From Prorocentrum cordatum (taxonomy: Eukaryota > Sar > Dinophyceae > Prorocentrales > Prorocentraceae), in the NCBI GenBank assembly GCA_963575745.1, contig CAUYUJ010016893.1, positions 568,842 through 632,841 on the forward strand: 64,000 nt of DNA, in the 5' to 3' direction. The notes under the pieces were generated by a model. It saw nothing but the letters and a program-made list of their open reading frames with translations. It ran no database searches and was not told where the DNA came from. The position numbers and the translations under genes are program-made. Below, piece after piece: positions 14,145 to 63,608 of the stretch (position 1 is the first letter of the stretch; every line of letters begins with the position of its first letter).

Positions 14145-14311
14145 TAGGGCGACGAGATCTATGCATATCCACTGCTCCTGGCCAGGCCCATCCTGGGCCC
14201 AGGAGCGGTGTATATGCCTCCCTGGCCAAGCCAGGAGGGCGTATACACAGCTCTTGGGCCCAGGATTGGCCTGGCCAGGAGCAGTGGATATGTATAGAGA
14301 TCGTCGCCCTA
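14145..14311. mobile_element. Foldback element, family F9, with 5-bp TSD
   Basis: A 167-bp near-complete hairpin. TAGGGCGACGAGATCTATGC on the left matches the reverse complement of the right end (ATAGAGATCGTCGCCCTA). Pairing continues through ATATCCACTGCTCCTGGCCA. GTGCA lies directly outside both ends (14140-14144 and 14312-14316), the expected mark of a transposase-style insertion. It is noncoding. Confidence 0.8.
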
Positions 14312-15549: not shown

Positions 15550-18145
15550 GCACAATCTGTGAGGGTCGTCCAGGGCACAGCAGGCATGGCATATTCTCGA
15601 CACCATAGGGGGTGCGCAGGGGGTGGTTTCTCACCGCGGCCGCTATCCGTGACGGTAGTCCAGGGCATAGCAGGCAGGGCAGATTCTCGACACCAGGAGG
15701 GGGTGCGCAGGGGGTGGTCTCTCACCGCGGCCGCTATCCGTGACCGTCGTCCAAGGCACAGCAGGCATGGCATATTCTCGACACCATAAAAGGGGTGCGC
15801 AAGGGGTGGTCTCTCACCGCGGCCGCTATCCGTGACGGTCGTCCAGGGCACAGCAGGCATGGCATATTCTCGACACCATAGGGGGTGCGCAGGGGGTGGT
15901 CTCTCACCGGCCGGTGACGGTCTGGCATCTCGTGCGCAGGGGGTGGTCTCTCACCGCGGCCGCTATCCGTGACGGTCGTCCAGGCATGGCATATTCATGG
16001 TCTCTCACGGCGGCCGCTATACTAGGGCACAGCAGGCATGGCATATCTCGACACCATAGGGGGTGCGCAGGGGGTGGTCTCTCACCGCGGCCGCTATCCG
16101 TGACGGTCGTCCAGGGCACAGCAGGCATGGCATATTCTCGACACCATAGGGGGTGCGCAGGGGGTGGTCTCTCACCGCGGCCGCTATCCGTGACGGTCGT
16201 CCAGGGCACAGCAGGCATGGCATATTCTCGACACCATAGGGGGTGCGCAGGGGGTGGTCTCTCACCGCGGCCGCTATCCGTGACAGTCGTCCAGGGCACA
16301 GCAGGCATGGCATATTCTCGACAGCGTAGGGGGTGCGCAGGGGGTGCTCTCTTACCGCGGCCGCTATCCGTGACAGTCGTCAACGGCACAGCAGGCATGA
16401 CATATTCTCGACACCATAAGGGGGTGCGCAGGGGGTGGTCTCTCACCGTGGCCGCTATCCGTGACGGTCGCCCAGGGCACAGCAGGCATTGCATATTCTC
16501 GACACCGTAGGGGGTGCGCAAGGGGGTGGTCTCTCACCGCGGCCGCTATCCGTGACGGTCGTCCAGGGCACAGCAGGCATGATATTCTCGTAAGGGGGTG
16601 CGCAGGGGGTGGTCTCTCACCGCGGCCGCGCCGTGCCGGTCGTCACACAGAGGCATGGACACCATAGGGGGTGCGCAGGGGGTGGTCTCTCACCGCGGCC
16701 GCTATCCGTGACGGTCGTCCAGGGCACAGCAGGCATGGCATATTCTCGACACCATAGGGGGTGCGCAGGGGGTGGTCTCTCACCGCGGCCGCTATCCGTG
16801 ACGGTCGTCCAGGGCACAGCAGGCATGGCATATTCTCGACACCATAGGGGGTGCGCAGGGGGTGGTCTCTCACCGCGGCCGCTATCCGTGACGGTCGTCC
16901 AGGGCACAGCAGGCATGGCATATTCTCGACACCATAGGGGGTGCGCAGGGGGTGGTCTCTCACCGCGGCCGCTATCCGTGACGGTCGTCCAGGGCACAGC
17001 AGGCATGGCATATTCTCGACACCATAGGGGTGCGCAGGGGGGGTCTCTCACCGCGGCGCTATCCGTGACGGTCGTCCAGGGCACAACAGGCATGGCATAT
17101 TCTCGACACCAGAGGGGGCGCGCAGGGGCTGGTCTCTCACGGCGGCCGCTATCCGTGACAGTCGTCCAGGGCACAGCAGGCATGGCATATTCTCGCCACA
17201 CCGGGGGTGCGCAGGGGGTGGTCCCTCACCGCGGCCGCTATCCGTGACGGTCGTCCAGGGCACAGCAAGCATGGCATATTCTCGACACCATAGGGGGTGC
17301 GCAGGGGGTGGTCTCTCACCGCGGCCGCTATCCGTGACGGTCGCCCAGGGCACAGCAGGCATGGCATATTCTCGACACCAGGGGGTGCGCAGGGGGGGTC
17401 TCTCACCGCGGCCGCTATCCGTGACGTCGTCCAGGGCACAGCAGGCATGGCATATTCTCGACAGCGTAGGGGGTACCGCGGCCGCTAAGTGGTCGTCTCG
17501 CGGCCGCTATCCGTGACGGTCGTCCAGGGCACAGCAGGCATGGCATATTCTCGACACCATAGGGGGTGCGCAGGGGGTGGTCTCTCACCGCGGCCGCTAT
17601 CCGTGACGGTCGTCCAGGGCACAGCAGGCATGGCATATTCTCGACACCATAGGGGGTGCGCAGGGGGTGGTCTCTCACCGCGGCCGCTATCCGTGACGGT
17701 CGTCCAGGGCACAGCAGGCATGGCATATTCTCGACACCATAGGGGGTGCGCAGGGGGTGGTCTCTCACCGCGGCCGCTATCCGTGACGGTCGTCCAGGGC
17801 ACAGCAGGCATGGCATATTCTCGACACCATAAGGGGGTGCGCAGGGGGTGGTCTCTCACCGCGGCCGCTATCCGTGACGGTTGTCCAGGGCACAGCAGGC
17901 ATGGCATATTCTCGGCACCCGCGGCCGCTATCGGTGACGGTCGTCCAGGGCACAGTAGGCATGGCATATTCTCGACACCATAGGGAGTGCGCAGGGGGTG
18001 GTCTCTCACCGCGGCCGCTATCCGTGACGGTCGTCCAGGGCGCAGCAGGCATGGCATATTCTCGACACCATAAGGGGGTGCGCAGGGGGTGGTCTCTCAC
18101 CGCGGCCGCTATCCGTGACGGTCGTCCAGGGCACAGCGGTATCGG
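15550..18145. repeat. 90-bp satellite, about 29 units
   Basis: The unit reads GACGGTCGTCCAGGGCACAG, CAGGCATGGCATATTCTCGA, CACCATAGGGGGTGCGCAGG, GGGTGGTCTCTCACCGCGGC, CGCTATCCGT. Units at 16670-17030 and 17515-17830 are essentially identical, while edge units and some internal ones carry indels. Each unit has overlapping SacII (CCGCGG) and NotI (GCGGCCGC) sites. Because 90 is divisible by three, long frames are open on both strands. No start context or variation pattern suggests translation. Confidence 0.97.
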
Positions 18146-49990: not shown

Positions 49991-51515
49991 CGGCCTTCCA
50001 TCCGCAGGGGCCCCTTCAGTGCAGGCACCAGTCGGGGAATATAAGACCCATGTCAGAGCTGTGCTCTCGGAATGCCCTACAGAGGGGTCCTCATCCGGTC
50101 GCGCGCTCGAGCCGTGATAAACATATGGCAGGGCGTTCCGATGGCTGGCGCGGCCTCCCTGGAGCCCTGGAGGGGGCACGGGTGGGGCTCGTGGGGGGGC
50201 GAGAAATGGCACGGACCCTGGTGCATGACAGTGGACCTCGACGGCTGGCAGAGCCTGGCGCGGCTTCCCTGGAGGGGCAAAATGTGTTTCACCGAGGCTC
50301 GTGCAGCGGAAGCGCATGCGGGAGGAGGATGGCACTCATGTCCGGACCCGTGCAATGGAAGCACATGCAGGAGGCGGCACCCGTGCAGTGCGTATGCAAG
50401 AGGAGGTGGGACTTGTAAGCGCGTAGGGGGAGGGAAGGATTTTTGGATTGCGCTGCTGATGAAGCGTATGGCCTGTCAGCTGATGGCGGCGCTGCGGCTA
50501 GCAGAGGCGGTCAGCACAGTCAACTCGTGTGGCTATGCTAAACGGCGAGGCTCGCAAACTCTGCACGGGCACCAAGTCGGAGGGAAGGAGGAGAGGGAGG
50601 AGAGGAACCTGTCTTGAAGCATAAAAGCCCCGCTTTTGGCGTGGACGCGGGTCCTCTCACCCTGCTCCTCCCTCGCCTCCTGCGGCTCCTCGCCACCGCG
50701 CCTGGAGTTCCAACGCGACGGGGAACAGCTTCCCGCGCGCTTGCTGTCTGTACCGTCGGCGTCCCGGGGTGGGTCCCCTGGCCCACAGTGGCCCGCGCTG
50801 AAGGACTGGTCCTGGGGATGGGGTCGAGTATGTGGCTCAGGGAATGAAACAGCTCAGCGCCGGAAAGCTGGGACGGGACCTCCCTCCACTCTTCCGCCCC
50901 CCATGCTGATCTCACGGAGATCGGTGGGACATGTTGGCATATGCTTGCGCTGCGGACAGAGCAGCTGGAGCCCATGGAGGCGAATCTCAGCATTGCGAGC
51001 TTGAGGCTGCGTGCTCAACTTCTGGGCGTGGCCTGCAAACCCAAGTATATGTAACTTCAGCATTCCGTCAGCATTATGTTGGGAAGGGGGTAAAGCCACT
51101 CGCTTCATGACGTGAGCCTGAGGTGGATGTGGAGCGGAGAAGGGGGGGAGATAAATTATTGGGGGCAACGGGAAGCAAGGGAGATGCGGGCGGGGGACGA
51201 GAAATACAAGATGGGAGACACATTGAGATGGGAGAGGAGGAACTGCTGATGAAAGAGAGAAAGGGGCTACGCGAGGGAAGAATTCGGAGGAAAGGGGGGA
51301 CAGCAGACAGCAAACGGGACAAGGACACTTAGAACATCGGACTGGACTGTAGAGCGCAACGCTGCAAACACGTGACCAGAAGCGAGGACATGTGAACGGC
51401 ATGCGCAGATCAGGCAAACACAGCTTTCGAGGAGATGCAAAGGGATTCCGTGATCCTGTGCGCTTTGACAAGTAGAACCCTCCCATGAAATCTTCACATG
51501 TTAGCAGACACAATT
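49991..51515. other. No gene recognised
   Basis: Mixed sequence. Plus-strand frames at 50072-50617 are open but lack motifs. 51120-51330 is GGGA-rich. No recognisable element ends. Confidence 0.5.
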
Positions 51516-51518
51516 TCT

Positions 51519-51640
51519 CGAAGGTCCGCGCAGATTTCTTGGATCAGCGCTGGACACCCCGCAAAGTACGCCAGGGGCGGCGCAGGAGGCGCCGCCAGGG
51601 GGGCCCGACGCAGATCCAAGAAATCCGCGTGGACCTCCGA
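51519..51640. mobile_element. Foldback element, family F1, copy 2
   Basis: CGAAGGTCCGCGCAGATTTC then TTGGATC on the left pairs with GATCCAAGAAATCCGCGTGG then ACCTCCG on the right, about 27 bp of near-complete pairing over 122 bp. The middle contains GGCGCCGCCAGGGGGGCCC, as in copy 1. Confidence 0.88.
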
Positions 51641-51674
51641 CAAATGACGAGCAGGAGCTGCTGCTTAGCATGTC

Positions 51675-51861
51675 TTGGCGGCGCTCCCCGCGACACGCTG
51701 CGCCTGGCGAGCGGACAGCGTGCCGCTCCGCTCCGGGGGGCCGGGAGGCTCGGAGAGGCTCGGCACGCTGACACCTGTGCACTGCGGCGTGGGCAGCGTG
51801 TCGCGCCGCAGCCAGAAGCGGCGGCGCGACGCGCGGAGCCAGAGTTCCTGACCGTCTGTTC
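51675..51861. mobile_element. Element family F17 (GACAGCGTGTCGCGCCGC), copy 1
   Basis: CGCGACACGCTGCGCC...CGGACAGCGTGCCGCTCCGC...GGGCAGCGTGTCGCGCCGCA...GCGCGACGCGCGGAGCCAGA then GTTCCTGACCG parallels 57011-57186 step by step. Palindromic GCGACACGC words recur within it. It abuts the F2 element on its right and lies near an F1 element on its left, as it does at 57 kb. Confidence 0.75.
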
Positions 51862-52052
51862 GTGCCGCTCTTTCGGACTACCTACCAGACCACCCCAACC
51901 CAACCCGAAGACCCGAATTTCGGGCTGGGGGGGGGGGTAAGGGTTCCACGCGTGGTTTTTCTGTGTTTCCCGACCCCCCCCCCCACTGGAAATCGAGGGT
52001 AAATCTGAGCCTTCGGGTTGGGTTGGGGTGGTTTGGTGGGTGCCGCTCTTTC
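51862..52052. mobile_element. Foldback element F2, copy 2, with 13-bp TSD
   Basis: GTGCCGCTCTTTC stands at 51862-51874 and 52040-52052, bracketing a 165-bp F2 element (51875-52039). On the minus strand the word encodes KERH. Removing one repeat plus the element (178 bp) joins STKKERH to EQTVRNSG in one frame. This is what an intron born from an insertion would look like. The junction dinucleotides are not canonical GT-AG, so splicing is unproven. Confidence 0.8.
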
Positions 52053-52237
52053 TTCGTCGAGACGAGCTGCCACGGCGGGCCCATTTGCCACCGACAGACC
52101 GCCAGGAGCGACCGCGGCGGCGCCCCGAGGCCGCCGCGCTGCCCTGCGAATGGGCGCGGCCCCCCTTCGCCGGCCTCCGCGCGCAGCCGCGCGAGGGCGC
52201 CGCGGCCCTCGAGGCTCGCTCGGGCGCTAGGGGATGC
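52053..52237 (-). CDS. Ankyrin-type coding piece (downstream module)
   Basis: The minus strand from 52237 reads ARASLEGRGALARLRAEAGE then GLGAPPRSLLAVCRWQMGPP, a decayed version of the module at 52680-52893 (DASLEGHGAIVRLLAEAGAA, GLGEPPRWLLAAYRR). Helix-turn-helix spacing fits an ankyrin repeat. It probably belongs with the other minus-strand ankyrin pieces up to 57736. Decay of key Leu residues suggests relaxed constraint. Confidence 0.5.
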
Positions 52238-52496
52238 CAAGGTACTCCGTGATCCGGTGCGCTATTACGGGAAGAACCCTCTTGTGCAGTCCTCGGATGA
52301 GCTTCCAGGGCAGGCCCATCTGCCACCTGCGGCGGCAACTCATGGGAGCCTCCACTACCCATCTTGCTGGCTCTTGCGCATCGACGCCAATCGACGCTGT
52401 GCCGACGCAGACCGACGCGAAATCGGCGGCTTCTCGTCGATCGCCCGACGCTGGCGCACTGTGATGCACCCTGCAGCCAGCATCACGAGGACACAT
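52227..52496 (-). CDS. Coding-like piece with WQMGLPWKLI motif
   Basis: The minus strand encodes RRRWQMGLPWKLIRGLHKRV then LPVIAHRITEYLGIP and a stop at 52227. The core WQMG(L/P)PW(K/Q)L(I/V) is repeated in the neighbouring module at ~52070-52110, so a short segment of this gene has been duplicated. The function is unknown. Confidence 0.4.
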   Translation of the reverse strand: MCPRDAGCRVHHSAPASGDRREAADFASVCVGTASIGVDAQEPARWVVEAPMSCRRRWQMGLPWKLIRGLHKRVLPVIAHRITEYLGIP

Positions 52497-52508
52497 AAAA
52501 CAGGGCTA

Positions 52509-52639
52509 GGATCGGGATAAATCGCTCCAGAGCGTTCCGGAGCGCTCTCAGAGCCTTCCGGAACGCTCTGGAGCGGCCGCGGCGCCCACTACATCCTCCA
52601 AACCCGCCGCTTCTCAGAGATTTCGAGTTATCCCGATCC
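52509..52639. mobile_element. Foldback element, family F7, with inner 19-bp hairpin
   Basis: GGATCGGGATAA (52509) and TTATCCCGATCC (52628) form 12-bp perfect ends. Inside, CGCTCCAGAGCGTTCCGGA (52523-52541) pairs perfectly with its reverse complement at 52557-52575. It sits between two ankyrin-like coding pieces. Confidence 0.8.
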
Positions 52640-52679
52640 GAGTTTGTCCCGATCTTCGCGTCGTTTTAACACACGAGGA

Positions 52680-52893
52680 CCCCATGAGTTTTCACCGAAC
52701 GCCGCCGATACGCCGCCAGGAGCCACCGCGGCGGCTCCCCGAGGCCGCAGTGCTGCTCCGCGAAGGGGCTCGGCACCGCCGCGCCGGCCTCCGCCAGCAG
52801 CCGCACGATGGCGCCGTGGCCCTCGAGGCTCGCGTCCGTGAGCGCCGTCCTCACGACCGGCGAGCAGATCCATATCGATCGGGGCTTCGCCAA
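52680..52893 (-). CDS. Ankyrin-repeat coding piece
   Basis: The minus strand reads CSPVVRTALTDASLEGHGAI then VRLLAEAGAAVPSPFAEQHC and PPRWLLAAYRR. TAL..ASLEGH..IVRLL.EAGA is a clear ankyrin repeat (two antiparallel helices, usually a protein-protein interaction surface). An F2 element abuts its 5' side. The boundary GGTAGGTAGTCAG/TTTAGC on the minus strand offers a plausible AG acceptor. Confidence 0.65.
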
Positions 52894-52914
52894 CGGGGGT
52901 TTCGCTAAACTGAC

Positions 52915-53074
52915 TACCTACCAGACCACCCCAACCCAACCCGAAGACCCGAATTTCGGGTTGGGGGGGGGGTAAGGGTTCCACGCGTGTTTTTCGATGT
53001 TTCCCGACACCCCCCCCACTGGAAATCGAGGGTAAATCTGAGCCTTCGGGTTGGGTTGGGGTGGTTTGGTGGGT
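52915..53074. mobile_element. Foldback element, family F2, copy 3
   Basis: TACCTACCAGACCACCCCAA to GGTTGGGGTGGTTTGGTGGGT, 160 bp, highly similar to copy 2. It lies immediately upstream (minus sense) of the ankyrin piece at 52680-52893. No TSD is seen. Confidence 0.9.
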
Positions 53075-53467
53075 GGTGATACACGGGGGCGGAGGCCTGT
53101 GCATCTCTATCCCCCGCGTGCTGTACCCCCGCTCACGGCGCCCAGGGCCCCCCCACACGGGGGCACCGCCAAGCGTGGAAAGCAGCGTTCCCCGCACGCG
53201 CCCCCGCGTGCTGCGCCCCCGTCTCTGTCTGGCGCCCCGTGGCGCGCCCTCGCGACCTGGAGGCTCGGGGCGCGGTCCGTCGCCGCCGCGGCCCTGAGGC
53301 GGCGCGCTCTGCCCGGCAGGCGGACGGCGTGCCGCCCCGCCCCGCGGGGCTCGGGCAGGCTCGGCAGACGCCGGAGCCGGGGCGCCGGGCAGGGGAGAAG
53401 CGAGGGGGGGCAGAGCCGGCACAGGCGACGCGCTGTTCCAGATGGGCTCCGCCGTAGATGCCTCCCC
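53075..53467. other. GC-rich segment with diverged F17 copy
   Basis: 53240-53420 has CGCGACC, GGCGGACGGCGTGCCGCCCC, GGGCTCGGGCAGGCTCGG and CGCCGGAGCC in the order of family F17. CCCCCGCGTGCTG is also repeated at ~53109 and ~53203, bracketing ~75 bp. The minus strand is open but unrecognised. Confidence 0.45.
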
Positions 53468-53657
53468 AGATGGGGTCGGAGAAGAGTCAACCCGCACAGT
53501 AAGGATGCGCGAGAAGGATGCAAGGGCCTTGGGCGCCCATTTCGAAGCTTTTCGAGCGGGCCGCGGCCAACGGAAGCGGCCAAGGAGGCAAGGAGGCAAG
53601 GGTACCCTTGGAAAGGCTGCCCATCCTTACTGTGCGGGTTGACTGTAGATGGGGTCG
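53468..53657. mobile_element. Foldback element F3, copy 2, with 11-bp TSD
   Basis: AGATGGGGTCG at 53468-53478 and 53647-53657 brackets a 168-bp element. Its ends AGTCAACCCGCACAGTAAGG and CCTTACTGTGCGGGTTGACT are perfect inverted repeats. The interior shares AAGGATGCAAGGGCCTTGG with 23215-23395. It is a recent insertion, given the exact TSD and ends. Confidence 0.9.
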
Positions 53658-53968
53658 TGGAATCAGGACGCATCGTCGATGCACGACCGACTCATCGGCG
53701 GTGCATCGGCGACGGCGGTCCTGCATCGGCGACGCCGGCGTGGAGAGCCTCGGGCGCCACATCGAGCCGCATCGCCGACGCATCGGCGATGCGGCGCGAT
53801 CCTCCGACCGCATCTCCTGGGACCCCATCAGGGAGGCCTACAGACCCGCGATCGCACGGATACGTTCCGCGCGGGGCCTGCGCGAGAGCACGCCCCGTAC
53901 CCGCGGGGTCGCGGCGCTGGTGCCCAGCCCGGAAGGCCGTGGACACGGATCTGTGTTTTGCGGGACTG

Positions 53969-54130
53969 GAAAATGACCACAGCCACTGCTTCTTGTTTGC
54001 GCCGCCTTCCAGCCGGCCGAACAAGAAATTTCACTGGTGCCAAGCTCAACGAAAATTACCACAACCACTGCTGTGTTTCTGCGGGCTGGAAGGCGGCAAC
54101 AAAAGAAAAGCAGTGGCTGTGGTCGTTTTC
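53969..54130. mobile_element. Foldback element, family F4
   Basis: GAAAATGACCACAGCCACTG then CTTCTTGTTTGCGCCGCC on the left pairs almost fully with GGCGGCAACAAAAGAAAAGC then AGTGGCTGTGGTCGTTTTC on the right. A second GGCTGGAAGGCGG/CCGCCTTCCAGCC pair lies within. It is 162 bp and noncoding, next to the ankyrin piece at 54150-54239. Confidence 0.88.
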
Positions 54131-54149
54131 AAGCCCCGTGGTGTTTCGC

Positions 54150-54239
54150 CCACGGCGTCCCCCCGTCGTCGTCGGCGGCATCGAGGCACGCGCCCGCGCT
54201 CACGAGCACCGCCACGACCTCCTTGCGGGGAGACGTAAG
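54150..54239 (-). CDS. Ankyrin-repeat coding piece
   Basis: The minus strand reads LTSPRKEVVAVLVSAGACLD then AADDDGGTPW. KEVVAVLVSAGACLDAADDDGGTPW has the helix 2/beta-turn pattern of an ankyrin repeat. Coding resemblance stops at the F4 element on one side and at a foldback-like segment (54270-54385) on the other. Confidence 0.6.
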
Positions 54240-54269
54240 GCTCGGGTTCGGGGGGCTCGGGCTGGCCTG

Positions 54270-54385
54270 ACGGGGCCGTCGGGCGAATGACGAGACCCAG
54301 TCTGGAGCCTGACGAGGGCTTCGGCTGCAAACGTGCCACGAAGCCTCAACCGTCAAATTTCAGGCTGGGCTCGTCAGGCGGCAAC
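54270..54385. mobile_element. Possible foldback element (GCCTGACGAG)
   Basis: GAGCCTGACGAGGGC (~54306) and GGGCTCGTCAGGC (~54366) are inverted. GGCCTGACGGGGCCGTC further out pairs loosely with GGCGGCAACGGCAC. The ends are not sharp. Confidence 0.4.
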
Positions 54386-54482
54386 GGCACACCCGAGGTC
54401 CGGGGAACTCGAGTCTTACGTTCCCCCTCCCCGACCCCCGACCCTTACGAGGAGCAAGAAAAAGAACACAGACACATAATTC

Positions 54483-54598
54483 CGCAGGTCCTTGCGGACG
54501 TCTTGGGCCCCCGCTGGACACCCCCCTCGCTGGCGCGCCCTGGAGGCGCTGCCAGAGAGGCCCAAACGTCCAACCCAAGAAGTCCGTCCGGACCTCAG
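54483..54598. mobile_element. Foldback element, family F1, copy 3
   Basis: GCAGGTCCTTGCGGACGTCT then TGGG pairs with CCCAAGAAGTCCGTCCGGAC then CTC, 116 bp. The interior CGCTGGACACCCC is shared with copy 2 at 51.5 kb. Confidence 0.8.
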
Positions 54599-54729
54599 GA
54601 AGTTCACTGCGTACTGATGGCATACACCTGTAACATTAGCTAATTGATGAACTCTTTCCTCTAATTATCCCGGCAAAGCAACCTAACAGCGATGTGTAGA
54701 AGCATAGATGGAAACATTGCATGCGGTAT

Positions 54730-55290
54730 TCATGTAAGAGCGCTGTTGTAGAATTCTGGTGTTCTCGCAGTCGCATTCGGATTCGCAGTGGCAGTCGCAG
54801 TGGCAACATCAGCGGCAGTCGCAGTGGCACTGCCAGTAGTTACAGTAGCAATAGCTACACTAACAGCAGCAACAGCAGCAGCAGCAGCAGTAATAGTAAC
54901 AGTAGTGTAGCAGTAGAAGTAGTAGTGATGGTAGTAGTGGTAACAGTGAAGTAGTAATTGTAATGTGTGGAGTGAACGAGTAGGAGTGATGGGAGCAGTG
55001 GTAGTAGCAGTAGAATCACTGCTTTCGATAACGGGGATGCGGTCGCGATGGTCCGAGAAACGTTTGGCCAACTTGTTTTCGGCCCGTTCTTGTTCGGACG
55101 TTCCTTTATTTCGCTTCGGTATCCGGCCGAACTGCTTCACGTGCTCGACGAGCGTTTGCAGAGGACCGCTCAATGCAGCACGCTGAGGAGCAGCGCTGTT
55201 CCCTGCCGCAGGCTGAGGAGCACCGCTGTTCAATGCAGCAGGGTCAGGAGCAAAGCCGCCAGACCGAGAACTATCAGCATGTCCTGGCAT
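54730..55290 (-). CDS. Small protein with helicase-associated-like motif
   Basis: From the ATG at 55290 the minus strand encodes ~90 credible residues: an Ala/Pro-rich start, then LVEHVKQFGRIPKRNKGTSE and ERAENKLAKRFSDHRDRI. The pattern FGR(I/L)P...ERAENKLAKRF recalls helicase-associated-type helical modules, though I cannot name the family. From ~55020 the frame runs into (GTA/CAG)-like simple repeats, so the true 3' end is probably near there. A diverged SL lies ~60 bp upstream, suggesting a retroposed copy. Confidence 0.5.
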   Translation of the reverse strand: MPGHADSSRSGGFAPDPAALNSGAPQPAAGNSAAPQRAALSGPLQTLVEHVKQFGRIPKRNKGTSEQERAENKLAKRFSDHRDRIPVIESSDSTATTTAPITPTRSLHTLQLLLHCYHYYHHYYFYCYTTVTITAAAAAVAAVSVAIATVTTGSATATAADVATATATANPNATARTPEFYNSALT

Positions 55291-55347
55291 TGAGGTGCGC
55301 AGTAGGCGCTGCGCAGTTCCTTTGAAAGGAAATCTTCGAAAGCAAGG

Positions 55348-55368
55348 CTGTAGCCAAGATGGCTACGG
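55348..55368 (-). other. Diverged relict spliced leader
   Basis: The minus strand reads CCGTAGCCATCTTGGCTACA then G, matching the SL at 18 of 21 positions. The sequence is also palindromic (GTAGCCAAGATGGCTAC), so chance cannot be excluded. It lies upstream of the ORF at 55290. Confidence 0.55.
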
Positions 55369-55399
55369 GGACGATGATGATGATGAAGATGATGAGTCT

Positions 55400-55725
55400 T
55401 GGAAGTCTGGGAAGTGGAAGAGCACGAAGTGGCGTACAGTTGGCTCCGGGCATTCAAAATGTTGCCCGGGAGTAAAATTCTGGTAAGTGGAAGAGCACGA
55501 AGTGGCCTACAGTTGGCTCCGCGGCATTCAAAATGTGGCCCGGGAATGGTGTTCTGGGAAGTCGAAGAGCACGAAGTGGCCTACAGTTGGCTCCGGGCAT
55601 CCAAAATGTGGACAGGGAATGGAGTTCTGGGAAGTCGAAGAGCACGAAGTGGCCTACTGTTGGTTCTGGGCATTCAAAATGTGGCCCGGGAATGGAGTTC
55701 TGGGAGGTCGAAGAGCACGAAGTGT
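55400..55725. repeat. ~75-bp tandem repeat, 4-5 units
   Basis: The unit is AGTCGAAGAGCACGAAGTGG, CCTACAGTTGGCTCCGGGCA, TTCAAAATGTGGCCCGGGAA, TGGAGTTCTGGGA. The 75-bp period keeps a 25-residue plus-strand frame (EVEEHEVAYSWLRA) for parts of the array, but indels break it. Confidence 0.9.
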
Positions 55726-55739
55726 GTCCCCCGGGGGAG

Positions 55740-56206
55740 TCATCAGATGCTTTCTTTTGACCCCATTAGAAACCTATCAGTCTTCGCTGTTAAGTAAAAA
55801 TCCACCATAATATTTTTCAATATTTTATTCAATACCTTTTTATAATCCACCTGTGCCGATCATCGGTGCAGGGCGAGTTGAGACAGAGGCAGCTCCATGT
55901 TGGGCCGCGGGAGCCCTCCAGAGGGGTCCCAACGCACCAGTGCTCCGCGCTGCGTCCACCGGGCCAGCTGTCGCTGTCTCGACCGGCCCTCCTCTGAGAG
56001 TAGGTCGGCGGCGAGCCCTGGGGAGAAGGGAGAAGGAGAACAGGGGGAAAAGAAACCTACCTCGCTTTTGACCACCCTCGCTTCCAAAAGATACCAAACG
56101 ATGCCAAACTACGGCCTGTACTGGTCAGGCCGCTTAACGAGGAGGCGCGTGGTATGGCTTGGTTTTGCATGGAAGCGAAAGCGGGGTAGGTAATTCACGC
56201 TCTGAG
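55740..56206. other. No gene recognised
   Basis: An AT-rich segment (55790-55850, AATATTTTTCAATATTTTAT) is followed by GC-rich unique sequence. No ankyrin-like coding is seen. Confidence 0.55.
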
Positions 56207-56362
56207 AGAAGGCCTCCTCAGAAGGCCAGGAAGTCCCCGGGCCTTCTGAGAAGTTTTCGACACCCTGCCCGAAGACACAGAACACTGTTCAGAAGGGGTG
56301 AGGGCTCCAAAAAAAGTCCCGCCGCCTTCTGAGAAGGCCTTCTCCTTCTCACTTCGCCGCCG
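56207..56362. mobile_element. Foldback element F5, copy 2, between ankyrin pieces
   Basis: AGAGAAGGCCTCCTCAGAAG...GGCCTTCTGAGAAGTTTTCG...GCCGCCTTCTGAGAAGGCCT then TCTCCTTCTCACTTCGCCGCC. It has the same order of CTTCTCAGAAGG palindromes as 21968-22164. On the minus strand it follows HAAFRG of the ankyrin piece. A GT (GGGGTAACCAGG) between coding and element could serve as a donor. Confidence 0.82.
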
Positions 56363-56389
56363 ATCAGTCTTCCTCGGCTCCTGGTTACC

Positions 56390-56465
56390 CCGGAAGGCGG
56401 CATGGATCAGCGCTGTCCGCCCCGCCCCGTCAGACGCGTTGGCGTCCTTCGGTGGGTCCACAACT
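56390..56465 (-). CDS. Ankyrin-repeat coding piece
   Basis: The minus strand reads VDPPKDANASDGAGRTALIH then AAFRG. DA...DGAGRTALIHAAFRG is the start of a canonical ankyrin repeat. The repeat is cut off just where its second helix should start, where the GTAACC and then the F5 element begin. Confidence 0.65.
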
Positions 56466-56646
56466 CGGCTCGCTGGCAGCCGCTCGCCGAGGCGCGGCCG
56501 CTGGAGGGCACCCCGAGGCTGGAAAGCCGCCGAGAGCCGACCACCAAACGCCCAACGAAACCTCCAACCCCACACCCGGAACGACCTGCGGACCTCCGAC
56601 CCCGAACCTCGGGCCGAGCCTCGAGACGGCCCGAACTTCGTGCCGC

Positions 56647-56766
56647 TGCTCGGACGTCCATGTCCCGCACATGCTTCGGCTTCGTGCGTCTCTTGGTTTT
56701 CTGCTCGAGGCTCCAGGATGCCCTTCGATGGTCCCCGCCGAGAAACAATGCACACGTCCGAGCGAA
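56647..56766. mobile_element. Foldback element F6, copy 3, between ankyrin pieces
   Basis: GCTGCTCGGACGTCCATGTC to AATGCACACGTCCGAGCGAA, the interior CTTCGGCTTCGTGCGT...TTCGATGGTCCCCGCCGAGA matching the 11.7-kb and 12.9-kb copies. On the minus strand it begins right after ankyrin residues ADASACDEA. Confidence 0.87.
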
Positions 56767-56990
56767 GCCCAGGCTTCGTCGCACGCGCTGGCGTCCGCGC
56801 CCGCGCAGACCAGCAGCCGCACGATGGCCGCCCGGCCGTCAAACGCGGCCAGCAGCAGCGCCGTGTGGCCCTCGTGGTCCGCCGCGTGCACGTCGGCGCC
56901 GGCGGCGAGCAGCAGCCCGGCGAGGTCCGCGCGGCCGTGCACCGCCGCCTCCACAAGCCGAAGAACAGCAGGGACAGCATCGGGAGCACT
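56767..56990 (-). CDS. Ankyrin-repeat coding piece, two repeats
   Basis: The minus strand reads VEAAVHGRADLAGLLLAAGA, DVHAADHEGHTALLLAAFDG, RAAIVRLLVCAGADASACDE. These are nearly ideal ankyrin repeats. The frame differs from the 5' piece, with F17 and F1 elements between them. An AG at ~56990 (GAGCAG) is a possible acceptor. Confidence 0.75.
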
Positions 56991-57010
56991 TCTGCTCATA
57001 GGGCGACGTG

Positions 57011-57186
57011 GCGGCGGCCCCGGCGACACGCTCCGCGGACAGCGTGTCGCGCCGCTCCGCGGGGCGGGAGGCTGGGAAAGGCTCAGGGCGTTGACGCCGG
57101 GGGGCCGGGGCGTGGACAGCGTGTCGCGCCGCAGCACTGCGGGCCAGAACCGGCGGCGCGACACGCGGAGCCAGAGCTCCTGACCG
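57011..57186. mobile_element. Element family F17, copy 2
   Basis: GGCGGCGGCCCCGGCGACAC, GCTCCGCGGACAGCGTGTCG, CGTGGACAGCGTGTCGCGCC and GCGACACGCGGAGCCAGAGC then TCCTGACCG. It parallels 51675-51861. Inverted GCGACACGC words give hairpin potential. It is immediately followed by an F1 element. Confidence 0.75.
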
Positions 57187-57194
57187 CACGCTTC

Positions 57195-57331
57195 CCGAGG
57201 TCCGCGCGGGCTTCTCGGCTCGGCGCTGGGCGTCCCCCCCGGGGCAGCGCCCCCGGGGCGCCGCCCCTGGCGCTGGGGAAAGGGGGCGTTCGGCGCCGAG
57301 CCGCGAGATCCGCGATCCGCGCGGACCTCCG
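57195..57331. mobile_element. Foldback element, family F1, copy 4
   Basis: CCGAGGTCCGCGCGGGCTTC then TCGGCTCGGCGC on the left, GCGCCGAGCCGCGAGATCCG...CCGCGCGGACCTCCG on the right, 137 bp. It separates the first ankyrin piece from the second. Confidence 0.85.
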
Positions 57332-57344
57332 AGAGCGGATGCTC

Positions 57345-57736
57345 GTGGCGCGCTTGCTTCTTCGAATGAGCGCGGTGCGCCCCTCGCCGTCGGTCGCGTT
57401 CACGTCGGCGCCCGCCTCCACCAGGAGCCGCGCGATCTCCATCGGGCCGATCGCGGCCGTGCCCATCAGCACCGTCCAGCCGCACCGCTCGTCGGACCGC
57501 GAGCCGGACTCCACGAGCTGCCTCGCGATCTCCGTGGGGCCCTTGGCCGGGAGCACCATGAGCGGCGTGCGCCCGCGCCGCCAGTCCGGCAGCTGGTCGC
57601 CGAGGAGTCGCCGCGCGTGCCCCTCCGCCGCGGAGGCATCCTCGGCACGCGCGGCGGCCTCCAGCGCGGCCCAGGCGTCGCGCATCTCGCTGCGGATGGC
57701 GCCGGCAGTGCCCTTCCACGCGTGCCCGTGCGCCAT
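57345..57736 (-). CDS. Ankyrin-repeat protein, N-terminal piece
   Basis: The ATG at 57736 starts MAHGHAWKGTAGAIRSEMRD, then WAALEAAARAEDASAAEGHA and ankyrin repeats RTPLMVLPAKGPTEIARQLV and CGWTVLMGTAAIGPMEIARL then LVEAGADVNATDGEGRTALI. Ankyrin repeats usually mediate protein binding. The next repeats follow at 56990. Coding resemblance stops near 57345, where an F1 element starts. The LINE insertion lies 26 bp upstream of the ATG. I chose this Met because upstream codons run into the TSD. Confidence 0.75.
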
Positions 57737-57762: not shown

Positions 57763-57777
57763 TACACAAAGGGGAGG
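57763..57777. repeat. LINE TSD, 3' side
   Basis: TACACAAAGGGGAGG is identical to 63594-63608 and sits directly next to the LINE tail. Confidence 0.95.
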
Positions 57778-57931
57778 TTAGGTTAGGTTAGGACAGCCCC
57801 GAGGGGAAGAGCCTCGCAAGACTAAAACAAGGGGGGGGAGTGGCACCCCTCGGAGAGGGATTTGTTACCCTGGAGGACAGAGCTCCCCACACTCTGACCA
57901 GGGCCCGCGACGGGGTGCCACAGCCCCGAAA

Positions 57932-60900
57932 CTACTCCTCGGCCTGGAAGGCCTCCTTGGCTCGCACTCGCTTTGCGAGGGCAGCCATCCGTCGCTCGTA
58001 CTCAGGGACGGTGGGGGCACACGAGTGGGCCGAGGGAACAGACGTACAAGTGAGCGTCCTAGAACGCGGCTTGGGGGCCACAGACATTGCAGTGACCGCA
58101 GCAGCTCTATCAATCAATTGACGGATACGATTACTGGGGCCTACGCCTCGCGAGTACTTGCTTAGTACCTCACGACCCTTCCTAGAGGGCCGTTGGCACT
58201 TCTTATCAAGATTACGGGAGCACCTCTGGGCCCAGCAGCCGCAGCCGCAGCGAGCCGATTCAGCTTGGCTTGCGATGGCTCTGGGGCTCTGGGGTGGGTC
58301 TCGTGAGAGGCCACACCAATAACCAGGTGCCCCAGGGAACGGCGGACGACCTGACGAACGAACTCGGGGGCCCCAGAGCAGCCCAGAGCCTCTTGGGGGG
58401 TACCCTCATGGGCGACCACCAGACAATGCTTGCACTGCAGACCTAGCAGGCCACCCTCCCACTCATGCCACCCAGGAGCGGACCTGACAGAACGGTGACG
58501 GGCAAAGGGCCTGACGCGCTTCGCTCTGGACTGGAAGGCAGGTAGCACACTAGCAGCAAGCTGGAAAAAATACCTGGCGGTCTCAACTTCAGACTCGAGG
58601 CGGTTGGCTGCCTCGGGTCCGATCGAAGCGTGCATATTGAGAGCCTCCTTGGCGTGGAGGTCGGCAGCGCGGTTACCTTTCGCAGGCGCCCGCTCCACGA
58701 GCGGCAAGTTATCTATCGCGCCCTCGCTTCGATGCGCTTTCACATGCTGGATGGACCTTATGTGGCCGTGCCCGCTGAGGGAGCGGGCGAAGGCCGAGAC
58801 ACCAGCGAAGACCTTACTCGCACGAAGCTGTTCGTGCTCGGGAAGGAGGGCCTGACTTATTGCTGCTTTACAGTCGGCATGCATGAAGGAGCAGCGATCT
58901 GCGATCTGGCAAGCAACAGCAATCGAGAAAGTTTCAGCCATCGCTGGGGACTGCGGAAAACCTCCAGGCACAGTGCCACGCACTACCGAAAGGGCGGCCT
59001 CGGCCTGGGGGTCAAACAAAACGACCGCGTACGCAGCACGCTGAAAACAGGACAAAATCGGCATTGCACTGCTTCCGTCCACCGCGATGTGTAGGTTATC
59101 GCTATGGCCGGCGAATTGCACAGAATTCTCGGGCTCCAGTTCGGGAAAAACCTCACCTAAGTGGTTAGGCCTACAAGTGCATCATACGGAAAAGCCACGG
59201 CATGCCAAATCATCTTGGACCACTGGAGCGCGGGTGCCATGGCCTCACGCACCGCGGGCTCGCCGTGCAATGCCAGCTTGGCACGCAAGCTCGCGCCCCC
59301 CGTCGCAGGCGCCAAGTAGGACATGGCCTGGCGACGGATGGCGAGCAGCTCCTGGTCGTCAACGCCATTGACCTCGACCCCGTAGTGAGCTGCCATCTTG
59401 ATTCCAGTGGTGTAAACTCGTCCAAGCCTCTCATCGGCTTTCCTCATAGACTTGAGCTTGACCGCCTTGGCCAGGCGCTGGGAAGACTTCCGCAGACGCA
59501 TCTTCCTCTTTCCAGCGGTGCGGGCTTGTCCTCGTCGCCGTCCGCAGGCGAAATCCGTGCCAAGATAGGTGACCGCTGGCTTGGACTTGTCTTTGGCGAG
59601 GCCGAGCTTAGTGGCCACCTCCATGCCAAGGGCACAATCGCTGGCCACGACGGCAACCTTATCATTGAGAGTGGCCTGAAGTCGTCGGGAAACTGCTTGA
59701 AACTGCACACCCGCTTGGATCGCAACGCCTGCGACGATGTCTCGGCCACGGCCGCTCACGTGGACTCCAGTGTCGTCGATGTAGCGCATGAAATCAATCG
59801 ACGGGTTGCGGCACACAAACTGGTCGCACTCTGTGATCGTGAAGGCTCGAACCGCAACATCAGCGAAAGCACAGCCTGCTGGTAGCCCGAACGTGGCGAA
59901 CAGAACTGTGCTGCTGTGGCGCAGGCCAAGGCGAAGGATGCGTGGTGACTGCCACGTGTTGAAAATCAACTTGAGAATCGGCATGGGCATGCCGCAGGCA
60001 AGGACGCGACAACGTAACACCTCCAGCGGGATGCCCTCGTAGAACTTGCTGTAGTCCATCAGAATGAGCAGGCTGTAATTGTTCTGGCTGGCCTCAGCCT
60101 CACTGCGCGCAGCCTGCAACCAAGACAGATCGAGTGCACTGCGGCCTGCCAGGGCGCCCCAGCACGGGCGGCGCAGCTGCTGGTGAAGGCCATCGAGGCC
60201 ACGGCGCCGAAGTCTCTGCCAGACACGGTAAATGCCAGAGTACATTATAATCAGACGGTGGCCCTGGTCAGGCTTAGCTAGCATGGGCATGGCAATGAAA
60301 CGCAACTGGCGAGGCAAAAGACCAATCCGTTCGCATGCCTCAAAGAGCGCTGCCATGGCGTCGAGCGCAGCGCGAGGAAGTAGCCCAAGGTGACGAGGAT
60401 GCACTCGATCAATACTGGCTGTAGTGGTGCGCGGAAAGCTGTTAGACACATCACCAATGACGTCCGCACTGGCCCTGTCCATTGCCGTCCTGTCGGGCGT
60501 CCAGGCTTGGCTCGGAAACTGGCTAGCATGCCACAGCTTCTCATACTTGCGAACCTCAGCCTCGACGATATCATGGGGATGTGCCGAGAGCCCTCCTGCG
60601 ATACGAACTACCGTAGGGTGAAGCGCATTGGGAACTCGGGTAGTACGGTGTAGTCCTCGCGAACCATTGGACGATGCCGCGTCGCACCAGTCCTGCCACC
60701 GTTGGCGATCATCTTTAACTTCATCCAGCTCGGCCTTCCGTGCATCAGCTGCAATGTCTCGACGGCACTGCTCAAGAGTTCCAGCAGCTCGGCGGCTGTC
60801 ACGGTGGAGCCGAGGTGCGACACGAGTCTCGAAATCATCGTCCTGAGTGGCAGTTCCAGACTGGTCCCCGAGCTGCACATTGATGCCAAAGAAATCATCC

Positions 60901-62354
60901 TGGTCAAAGTCGGGCTCGTCAAACTGCAGGCCTTCCTGTCCTGAAAGGCCAACCTCGACAGCGGCCGCAGGGGCCGCTTCTGAGCGTAGATGTGCTGTGG
61001 ACGGTGCTGGTAGCGGGCCTTGGGCTCCAGCTGCACGAAGTAAGGCATTGCCTACTGCGACACGCGCCTCGAGGACACTGGCATCAAGGCGTGCGCATAG
61101 CCCCTGCCCGAAGTACTCAGCGGTCGAAAACACATCCACCTCGGCTTCCAAACAAGGTACTGTGGTGTGATTGAGCCTCATGAGCTTGCACAGGTTGCCC
61201 AGGGACTGCGATAACCATGTCCAGCCGCGAGAGATCGCCTTCGCTTCAGCAACGGTCTCGGGGCGGTGATTGTAATCAACCCATCTGGCTTTGGGTGGCG
61301 CCCCCCACGAAGCGCTGCTGGACGCACCCAAGCCAGTGACTGCACTAATCTCCTTCTCGGCGGCATGGGCGAAGGTAGCCCACGCTCGAGACAAAATGCA
61401 CCATGCTTCACGGACAGGCTTCTGGCGACTAGCATCGACGGCCGCCTCAGCCATCACAGAGGGGTGGTGCCAATCTGGGCCTTCTCGTGTGGGTCCGATG
61501 ATGCGTTCAGCCCCATACTTCTTTGCCACCGTGTATACCATGTACTGCTGCCTTAGGCCTTCCGTAGAAAGACCCAGTGAGATGGGGCGGCGAGGTCGCT
61601 TCGGCCAGGAAGTGTCCACATGGACGGACTCAAGCAACCTCTTGGCAACAGTGTTGACAGCAAAGAAATCAATCGCACGGCTCGACTTGGGTGTGATGCA
61701 AGTGGGCAGGGACGGGGCCACGAGTACCATCCTGGCTTCTCTCGGGAAGCCTGACTCCTCGATGTCCCTCGGGGTAGCATTCCAGTCACCAGCCAGGACG
61801 ACGGGGTCGGCAATCTCAGATACCCGCGTGCCGATCTGAGCCAGGATGCGCGCATTCCTGCCCTTGATGCCCTGGTTGACCACCAGGTAGAAGCAGACAA
61901 TGTGCAGCGGCGGCCAGCCAGGAAGGTGCACAACTGCATGCAATGCGCGTCGCTGGTGAAGGACAGCGTGGGCGCAACCTGGTCCCCGAAGTCCAACGTG
62001 ATCCCCAGCCAGAATAGCTACTCCCTGCGCGGGCGTTGTTCCCCTGGACTTGGCGCCAGGGCTGGCGAGGCACTTCCACCCACGACGACCTGCCCAGGCA
62101 ACAAAATCAGCATTGTCATCATCGTGGAATCCGACTTCCTGTGCGACGAAAATTGTCGCTGACGAAGCCTGTATCTTTTCCTTCAGTGTGCGGATGCCAC
62201 GGTTAGCGTTGAAGGATTCCACGAAGAACTGGCTACGGGGGTCAGCATTCGGTGGTGGCCGAACTTGGCCGTGATGAACAGGTAAGCTACTGACTAATAC
62301 AGGCAGATCAAAGGCGCTGCCGTTTATCACGATGCATGGCCAGTAGCTTGTCAT
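57932..62354 (-). CDS. LINE ORF2: endonuclease, reverse transcriptase, RNase H
   Basis: The first usable Met after the shadow of ORF1 is at 62354, overlapping ORF1 by 47 bp. Endonuclease (~62230-61600): FVAQEVGFHDDD, VVLAGDWNATP (~61797) and SRAIDFFAVN fit the exonuclease-endonuclease-phosphatase fold. Reverse transcriptase (~60300-59500): FIAMPMLAKPDQGHRLIIMY, LLILMDYSKFYEGIP, FGLPAGCAFADV and the catalytic box FMRYIDDTG (~59785). RNase H (~59080-58600): D in HIAVDGSS, E in SPAMAETF, D in FMHADCKAA, then VKAH and the final D in NRAADLHAKEA. Frame changes lie near 59160 (RT to RNase H) and ~58190 (to the C-terminus ending AALAKRVRAKEAFQAEE at 57932). ORF2 makes the machinery for target-primed reverse transcription. 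Confidence 0.92.
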
Positions 62355-63570
62355 GGAACTTCTGCATGAGGTCTTCGTTGCTGTCGTCAGGGTTGCCCCC
62401 TTTGACAAGCTCGAACAGTACCTTTGACTCCTCGAAAGTGGGGTCGAGGTCACGCTTGACGCCGCCACCAGAGGAGCCGTCATCGCCAGGAGTAGGAGGT
62501 ACATCCGAACTCTCAGCGGGCTGCTGTGGCATGGGGGCATCCTCGTGCTCAGGTACGGTTGCCTTCCGCACCTGGCCCTCGAGGTCGGAGAAGAACTTGT
62601 CAATGGTCTCCGCTCCGATGGATTCGAGGGCGGTGCGGATCTCCTCGGGGAGCCCATCCTTGTCGAACTTGAAATCAGAGAAGAGGGGCCGCTCGGGGGC
62701 GACAGCCTTCGCGGTCTCAGCGAAAGACTTCTTGTAGCCATCGATCTCCGCCTCCTTGGAGACGATTGCGGCCCTCTTGTTCTCCAGTGCGGCCTGGAGA
62801 TCGTTAACTTGCTTGGACATCTTCTCAGCCTCGCGCTGGAGCTTGACCAACTGGGATTGCGCATTCTTGAGCTTGTCCTGGGCCCTGCGATGGGCAGCCT
62901 CGGGAGACTGGACGCTCTCGAGCTGCACACGGAGGGTCTCGAGCTCGAGCTGGTGCGCCTGCTTAACATGAGACGGCAGCGACGGCTCCTTGATGGGACT
63001 TCTCATAGAATGCGATCGACGAGAGAATCTCCGCTCGGGTGGCTCCTGCATCCTTCGGCCTCTCAGCACCTGTGCCCTGGTCGGGCGTCGGGTCCTTGAG
63101 GCTTGTGTTGGCCAACTTGCGCTCGAGCGCGGCCAGCTGCTTGCGGAGCTCCTCGTTCTGGTCCCGTGCCCATGGCGCTGGTGTGGGACGACGGCCACCA
63201 AGCACGGGCTTCCTCCCTTGCGCTTCCTTCTCGGCTCTAGCATGTGCGGTCTTGGCTGCGGCGACGATGCGAGCCGGGGCAGCTGTGCCGCAACGGCATC
63301 GGACACGGCACGCCCAGTTCTTGTCTGCGCCGCAACTGCATCCCCAGTACGGCGACCTGGGGCCGCGCAGCACATCAGAGGCGGGAGGCGGTGGGACCAT
63401 GGGGCTCGCGAGCCCTCCAGCTGGAGGACCCCTGAAACCCTCGACTGAGGGGCCTCCGTGAGGAAGGGTGGAACTGGTGCAGGCGCCCAACCCCTGCAGT
63501 AAAGGCGGAAAGCTTCGAGGGCAAGCTGCGGACTAGCGGTATCCGTTTTGGCCCCAAGGGAACCAGGCAT
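62308..63570 (-). CDS. LINE ORF1: zinc-ribbon-like and coiled-coil protein
   Basis: The ATG at 63570 directly follows the SL. Protein-like sequence starts MPGSLGAKTDTASPQLALEA, changes frame near 63500, then shows a Cys cluster WGCSCGADKNWACRVRCRCG (~63345-63285) that could bind zinc. It continues through RDQNEELRKQLAALERKLAN. Near 62980 it returns to the first frame as a long coiled coil (LQREAEKMSKQVNDLQAALE), then an acidic tail to the stop at 62308. Two opposite single-base shifts suffice, so the ancestral ORF was likely continuous. By analogy with other LINEs, ORF1 would bind element RNA. Confidence 0.75.
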   Translation of the reverse strand: MPGSLGAKTDTASPQLALEAFRLYCRGWAPAPVPPFLTEAPQSRVSGVLQLEGSRAPWSHRLPPLMCCAAPGRRTGDAVAAQTRTGRAVSDAVAAQLPRLASSPQPRPHMLEPRRKRKGGSPCLVAVVPHQRHGHGTRTRSSASSWPRSSASWPTQASRTRRPTRAQVLRGRRMQEPPERRFSRRSHSMRSPIKEPSLPSHVKQAHQLELETLRVQLESVQSPEAAHRRAQDKLKNAQSQLVKLQREAEKMSKQVNDLQAALENKRAAIVSKEAEIDGYKKSFAETAKAVAPERPLFSDFKFDKDGLPEEIRTALESIGAETIDKFFSDLEGQVRKATVPEHEDAPMPQQPAESSDVPPTPGDDGSSGGGVKRDLDPTFEESKVLFELVKGGNPDDSNEDLMQKFHDKLLAMHRDKRQRL

Positions 63571-63591
63571 CTTGAGCCAAAATGGCTACGG
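63571..63591 (-). other. Spliced leader at LINE 5' end
   Basis: Exact SL core on the minus strand (CCGTAGCCATTTTGGC plus TCAAG). Here it is joined to ATG of ORF1, so the inserted template was a trans-spliced LINE mRNA. Confidence 0.95.
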
Positions 63592-63593
63592 AG

Positions 63594-63608
63594 TACACAA
63601 AGGGGAGG
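63594..63608. repeat. LINE TSD, 5' side
   Basis: TACACAAAGGGGAGG. It runs into a (GGA)n tract that would have been part of the pre-insertion site. Confidence 0.95.

Follow-up and report, generated by a model that had tools for sequence, protein, structure and literature searches.

A candidate introner and later foldback insertions in an ankyrin-repeat gene of Prorocentrum cordatum

Short foldback elements crowd an ankyrin-repeat gene of the dinoflagellate Prorocentrum cordatum, and the question raised by this locus is whether they made the introns in which they lie or entered introns that already existed. The gene occupies the minus strand, between positions 52227 and 57736, of a 64,000-nucleotide stretch (hereafter the window; positions 568,842 to 632,841 of contig CAUYUJ010016893.1, assembly GCA_963575745.1; mean GC content ~61%). 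A preliminary description had listed the foldback families F1 to F7 and F17 as candidate introners and read the pattern as intron creation in bulk by DNA transposons. The present analysis probably calls for a different picture, that is, a six-exon gene in which intron 5 is an introner and the other introns are older or of unclear origin, now nests of later insertions. A short non-autonomous inverted-repeat element would have landed within coding sequence, both of its ends lying at splice sites, and splicing out of intron 5 would restore the ankyrin protein. Several unrelated families of miniature inverted-repeat transposable elements (MITEs; short elements with inverted repeats), a tandem repeat and a probable retrogene relic would later have entered the other introns, leaving coding bases untouched. 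The order of these insertion events and the splicing of the transcript as modelled are what we infer from the arrangement described below.

The gene model, with its exon joins and splice sites, is predicted from the genomic sequence. Six minus-strand exons join into 299 codons plus stop. Exon 1 (57365..57736, ATG at 57736) and exon 2 (56796..56951, or starting at 56948 if AG/G is taken as acceptor; a slash marks the exon border) match Pfam Ank with E values of 2.9e-10 and 2.7e-7, respectively, exon 3 (56381..56446) alone stays below the cut-off (Ank_4, E 8.6e-4), and the joined protein matches Ank_2 with E 5.3e-50. Exon 4 (54160..54221), exon 5 (52706..52849) and exon 6 with the stop codon (52227..52326) are placed by exon joining and gapless alignment to a homologue. 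The top homologue among the 120 listed of 2005 matches (8000 candidates scored) is P0001 (292 aa, longest contig 1154 nt, E 4.7e-80, 95% of the query covered), which is 56% identical to the 299-residue protein. Its alignment is gapless at all five exon junctions, including the end of exon 1 and both sides of exon 3, with gaps confined to the N-terminal third and the very end; it backs the exon lengths, not the exact splice bases. From the other 119 listed homologues (ankyrin domains, 29-78% of the query covered) two sequences were inspected and none was used, and a search with the C-terminal part found no homologue among 225 candidates. GC content at third codon positions (GC3) is 0.96, 0.98, 0.82, 0.95, 0.98 and 0.79 in exons 1-6. 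The Pfam matches of exons 1 and 2 and of the joined protein thus uphold the ankyrin coding pieces of the preliminary description, but their borders had to be corrected to six exons. Its last piece, 52237-52053, is not an exon; it overlaps a decayed tandem copy past the stop codon, and the true exon 6 had been missed. No second ankyrin copy was found in 200 kb of contig flanks.

The splice sites of introns 2-5 were picked by gapless fit to the homologue together with the ankyrin pattern, and all four introns are in frame, with donors GA, GA, GA and GC and acceptors AG/G. The borders read G/GACGCC..AAG/GACGCC for intron 2 (56447..56795), CAG/GAGCCG..AAG/GAGGTC for intron 3 (54222..56380), GGG/GACGCC..GAG/GACGGC for intron 4 (52850..54159) and ATCG/GCGGCG..GCAG/GTGGCA for intron 5 (52327..52705). 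Donor frequencies tabulated for P. cordatum are 24.7% GT, 51.4% GC and 23.8% GA, with AGG at 79.7% of acceptors (PMC10666404). Intron 1 (56952..57364) has no clean join: the expected one-residue join is given by none of 35 in-frame, stop-free pairs (GT, GC or GA donors at 57390-57290, AG acceptors at 57010-56935), the nearest being four residues too long or too short. The unclean join bears on the idea of a dead gene, i.e. a decaying pseudogene that gathers elements without splicing. The heavy insertion load and the absence of constraint in a downstream partial copy (unit B, see below) would also fit, but 299 codons are free of stops, GC3 is strong in all six exons, and four of the five junctions keep the frame and align with a distant homologue without a gap. 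We therefore consider a dead gene improbable.

Intron 5 is where element ends, inverted repeats and an intron-less site agree, and it is the sole intron for which they do. The published criterion for P. cordatum introners, inverted repeats of at least 8 nt within 30 nt of both intron ends, singles out this one intron of five: it carries a 10-nt inverted repeat (P 0.0017; P 0.014-0.029 in a looser test). Terminal inverted repeats at the ends of introns 2-4 measure 4-5 nt and those of intron 1 measure 7 nt, and the looser test led to the rejection of terminal foldback arms for introns 1-4 (P 0.11-0.90). The foldback F7 (52493..52671, minus strand) is nested within the intron-5 element and flanked by an exact 9-bp duplication, GTCCTCGTG (52680-52672 and 52492-52484). 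Removal of F7 and one 9-bp repeat leaves a 191-nt foldback whose terminal stem starts from the first base and which folds with z -3.4 (folding z-scores are based on 60 shuffles per element).

The right part of the intron-5 element belongs to a genome family. Searched against the assembly (4,128,499,153 bases in 21,875 contigs), it was found at 40 of 40 scored places, out of 1270 first-look candidates, and the 39 places other than its own show 76-89% identity. With its own place included, 40 of 41 alignments end at query positions 148-157, most of them at 154; the other row, a second piece on one contig, ends at 109. Flanks were read for five of the 39 other copies. The right inverted repeat, ending in GTTGCCACCGA or near it, is common to all five, and their similarity stops at most 2 nt from the acceptor, after which the flanks diverge. 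The element end is established because the five copies share this right end and differ beyond it. On the other side, three copies (L052, L054 and L056) clearly show the left repeat TCGGTNGCAANTCATGGGAGC; their left end resembles GNGTCATTCGG and would provide the donor. AG directly follows the right end in L054, L055 and L056 (as AG/G in the latter two) and comes a few bases later in L053; as the position of AG varies among L052-L056, a complete acceptor is not carried by every copy. Repetition in the genome, ends at splice sites, an inverted repeat and presence or absence at one coding site are thus all found for this element, and intron 5 as predicted fits an introner. It was missing from the families listed in the preliminary description.

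The intron-less site is provided by unit B (51430..52219, minus strand), a partial tandem copy of exons 5-6 that lies downstream of the ankyrin stop codon, is broken by F2b, F17b and F1b, and lacks intron 5 exactly. Joined exons 5-6 align with unit B in 145 gapless columns across the exon 5/6 junction, in frame, and at the junction where unit B is continuous the genomic unit A carries 379 nt. With nonsynonymous (dN) and synonymous (dS) divergences of 0.173 and 0.166, dN/dS is about 1 and unit B shows no sign of constraint since duplication. We infer that intron 5 was gained here rather than lost from unit B. Conversely, unit B may go back to spliced mRNA, through retro-insertion or gene conversion, in which case intron 5 was lost there and the site is not an empty one. 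Retroposition is described as common in dinoflagellates (PMC6050394), and unit B directly follows the stop codon. However, unit B starts and ends within exons, as a tandem duplicate does, no leader or tail was seen by eye, and a gain is accounted for directly by a repeated element whose ends fall on the splice sites. The origin of unit B from mRNA is rated as rather improbable.

The phenomenon itself is already known, and the ankyrin gene is one example of it. Introners are published for many eukaryotes (Gozashti 2022, PMC9860276), for dinoflagellates (Roy 2023, as summarised in PMC11453091) and for Amoebophrya (Farhat 2021, PMC7789003), and P. cordatum introns are reported as enriched in inverted-repeat introners (Dougan 2023, PMC10666404). 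As in the accounts of PMC9860276 and PMC11453091, intron 5 holds a repeated non-autonomous inverted-repeat element that ends at splice sites and keeps the frame; unlike there, the case concerns one intron with predicted splicing and a second, unrelated MITE nested inside. The inverted repeats of 8-20 nt near both intron ends and the common GC and GA donors given for P. cordatum introners (PMC10666404) have their counterparts in this gene, although only intron 5 of its five introns satisfies the inverted-repeat criterion. Amoebophrya introners likewise have inverted as well as direct repeats at the ends of the introns; in contrast to the broad non-canonical set described there (PMC7789003), the donors here are GA and GC with AG/G acceptors, as tabulated for P. 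cordatum.

Foldback arm pairs are far more frequent than chance predicts. Within the window 14 arm pairs were found, eight of them at 51.5-57.8 kb, whereas five Markov shuffles of the complete window yielded 1, 0, 0, 0 and 1. A census over 264 kb of contig sequence that takes in the window counted 39 merged foldbacks: 7 in the 6.3 kb of the gene and 32 in the remaining 257.7 kb, where the densest stretch of equal length has five; no P value is attached to this density because the region was chosen for being dense. Folding is strongest for F4, F3, F2a, F7, F2b and F1b (z -7.3 to -11.3), followed by F1a, F17a, F6a, an element at 54.5 kb and F17b (z -2.8 to -4.5) and by a piece at 54.3 kb (z -2.0). 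The intron-2 element (z -0.0) and 53.11-53.46 kb (z -0.2) fold no better than their shuffles. Controls gave 0.8, -0.1 and -1.3 outside the gene, -1.2 and 0.5 in exon 1, and 0.8 in exon 5. Shuffles and z-scores accordingly bear out foldback elements in the gene for most of those described. The strongest foldback of the window (14145-14311, score 55) lies outside the ankyrin gene, and two foldbacks elsewhere on the contig, beginning at its positions 472438 and 646376, score 52 and 65, respectively. A second cluster, with five foldbacks in less than 6.3 kb, is located at 643276-647005 of the contig (C16044; 74435-78164 in window numbering) and is perhaps another gene of the same kind.

Within the gene the elements lie inside introns and are given, like these, on the minus strand. 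Intron 1 holds F1a (57345-57189) and F17a (57186 to ~56976), and intron 2 a repeated element at ~56771-56645. Intron 3 contains F6a, a tandem repeat (55400-55724), a spliced-leader relic with an open reading frame (ORF), an F1-family element and a further element with terminal inverted repeats (TIRs; 54226..54445). The spliced-leader relic (54730-55368, minus strand; three mismatches) is followed by a 186-aa ORF with no Pfam match above the cut-off, and is a probable retrogene nested in the intron. The right end of the TIR element lies 4 nt before the acceptor and its left end is uncertain; it aligns with three other copies and may have landed on the intron 3 acceptor. Intron 4 is a nest of F4 (53962..54137, z -11.3), a further family (53959-53646), F3a (53485..53645) and F2a (52911..53079). 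The element at 54.5 kb belongs to the F1 family and is taken to be the F5 of the preliminary description, which had reported intergenic copies in the window for F2, F3, F5 and F6. Copies elsewhere in the window were found for F2, F3 and F6, and also for F1 and the intron-2 element; F5 is reassigned. Within ~298 kb of fetched sequence, other copies were found of F1, F17, F3, F7, the intron-2 element and the two further families (54445-54226 and 53959-53646), and none of F4 or F6.

Could each named family have created its own host intron? In favour of this, elements crowd the gene, and several of them sit near the ends of exons. However, the ends of F1a, F17a, F6a, F4 and F2a are set back about 10-60 nt from the intron borders, F3 sits deep in intron 4, and several unrelated elements share one intron; the short inverted repeats at the ends of introns 1-4 given above argue in the same direction. 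The flanking duplications are more telling. F4 is bordered by GCGAAACAC and GCAAAACAC (8/9), wholly intronic, F2a by GTGTA and GTTTA (4/5) inside intron 4, and F3a by CGACCCCAT, a weak case in which the right copy is 6 nt off; the duplication is well supported for F7, fairly for F4 and F2a, and weakly for F3. None of F2a, F4 and F7 is thus an insertion into coding sequence. Because the duplicated bases are intronic, F7, F4 and F2a cannot have made their introns, and probably the same applies to F3a. The ends of F1a, F17a, F6a and the intron-2 element lie ~19 nt or more inside introns 1-3 and do not coincide with splice sites, which argues that these are likewise no intron makers, by a less strict distance argument. 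We regard an origin of each intron from its named family as highly improbable. The notion of foldbacks as intron makers fits one intron of five, intron 5, while the listed families miss the intron borders, the duplications of F7, F4, F2a and, weakly, F3 are intronic, and a creation of introns in bulk by these families is not borne out here.

F2 illustrates the character of these passengers. All 40 scored genome places, among 1205 first-look candidates, align at 97% or more, F2a itself included, and there are two short pieces in addition. The ends of the element read TCACC..GTCA, and an exact 5-bp duplication is present at 21 of 30 loci (F2a and one pair with identical flanks among them) compared to 4.3% of random pairs. 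Short size, inverted repeats, a fixed short duplication in most copies, high copy number and absence of coding capacity place F2 with the MITEs. As to a possible preference of F2 for coding sequence, the open-frame span at its 30 loci has a median of 904.5 nt vs 768 at random places, and its pattern had 0 matches in viral contigs. A 9-bp Mutator-type duplication for every family was rejected, as F2 has 5 bp in 21/30 loci; F7, a possible Mutator-like element, has exactly 9 bp here and an unclear duplication in three other aligned copies. In a 9-bp scan of 16 elements, F7 and F2b gave 9/9 right at their ends, F3a 9/9 with a 6-nt offset and F4 8/9, an F3 copy outside the gene 8/9 at the offset limit, and the other 11 elements 5-7/9. 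Random pairs reach 9/9 in 5.2% and 8/9 in 13.8% of cases under loose offsets. Under tight offsets the values are 0.275% and 1.3% for this region, and 1.13% and 3.6% for the whole window.

Beyond the alternative origin of unit B, several observations weigh against a six-exon gene with an introner in intron 5. Lacking a clean, canonical in-frame join at intron 1, this copy could be damaged or misassembled, and P0001 is presumed to be a transcript from its shape alone. The last query position, 157, is the last intron base, so that the alignment stops alone prove no element end. Among the flanked copies, the left end can be made out only weakly in L053 and not at all in L055, and in L052 the element end is not immediately followed by AG. 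Genic location is established for 0 of the 39 other places of the family. The duplication around the intron-5 element consists, by eye, of GGCGG and GGTGG (4/5), the longest exact repeat being 3 nt. As to the nested elements, a 12-base repeat at F2b misfits the 5-bp rule of its family, and under loose offsets the 9/9 duplications (3 of 16 elements) have to be read against the 5.2% expected per element.

The remaining introns might have had a similar start. Introns 2-4 could also be old introners whose ends have decayed and whose GA donors came from the duplicated target. Direct repeats at the splice sites are suggestive of this, with 16/19 matching positions at the two ends of intron 2 (0 of 50000 random pairs at the same spacing reach that value), AGGAG in intron 3 and GGACG in intron 4. 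Repeats of 3-5 nt are, however, partly expected from the AG/GA splice consensus, and the terminal inverted repeats are not beyond chance; old introners in introns 2-4 are possible, if doubtful. A wider version, in which introns 2-5 were all born as introners of different families, used the duplicated target bases as GA or GC donors and then became safe landing sites for MITEs, is speculative and seems unlikely.

Upstream of the ATG lies a long interspersed nuclear element (LINE; 57777-63592, minus strand) that starts with the spliced leader TCCGTAGCCATTTTGGCTCAAG. Its reverse transcriptase scores above the Pfam cut-off and its endonuclease just below, and between the reverse-transcriptase ORF and the one that follows it, for which Pfam gave no match, stands an in-frame stop (59121-59159, minus strand). 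Among 39 other scored copies (842 candidates), 37 start at most one base from the first base of the leader; because of this, trans-spliced RNA appears to be the source of the LINE copies, for which no report was found in a limited literature search. A 14-bp duplication, CTCCCCTTTGTGTA, flanks the LINE at 63594-63607 and 57763-57776. The LINE-free site reads, by eye, as a pyrimidine tract plus AG 25 nt before the ankyrin ATG, likely the trans-splice acceptor of the ankyrin gene, rebuilt by the duplication. In the window as a whole the dinoflagellate spliced leader occurs twice exactly and once with three mismatches; an exact copy at 8624-8644 (minus strand) precedes a long GC-rich open stretch, a possible retrogene. 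A long tandem repeat at 15896-18057 contains repetitive ORFs readable on both strands. Ten window ORFs outside the ankyrin gene gave no Pfam match above the cut-off, and Rfam had 0 matches at the gathering threshold.

In summary, the locus lets three states be compared directly: in unit B the coding site has no intron, at intron 5 it holds an introner, and in that introner F7 is nested in turn. It also carries a warning, as lying within an intron does not make a foldback an introner and most of those seen here look like later passengers, which bears on introner counts based on inverted repeats alone. Should introns 2-5 indeed all have been born as introners, introner birth followed by nesting would account for the very long introns of the P. 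cordatum genome.

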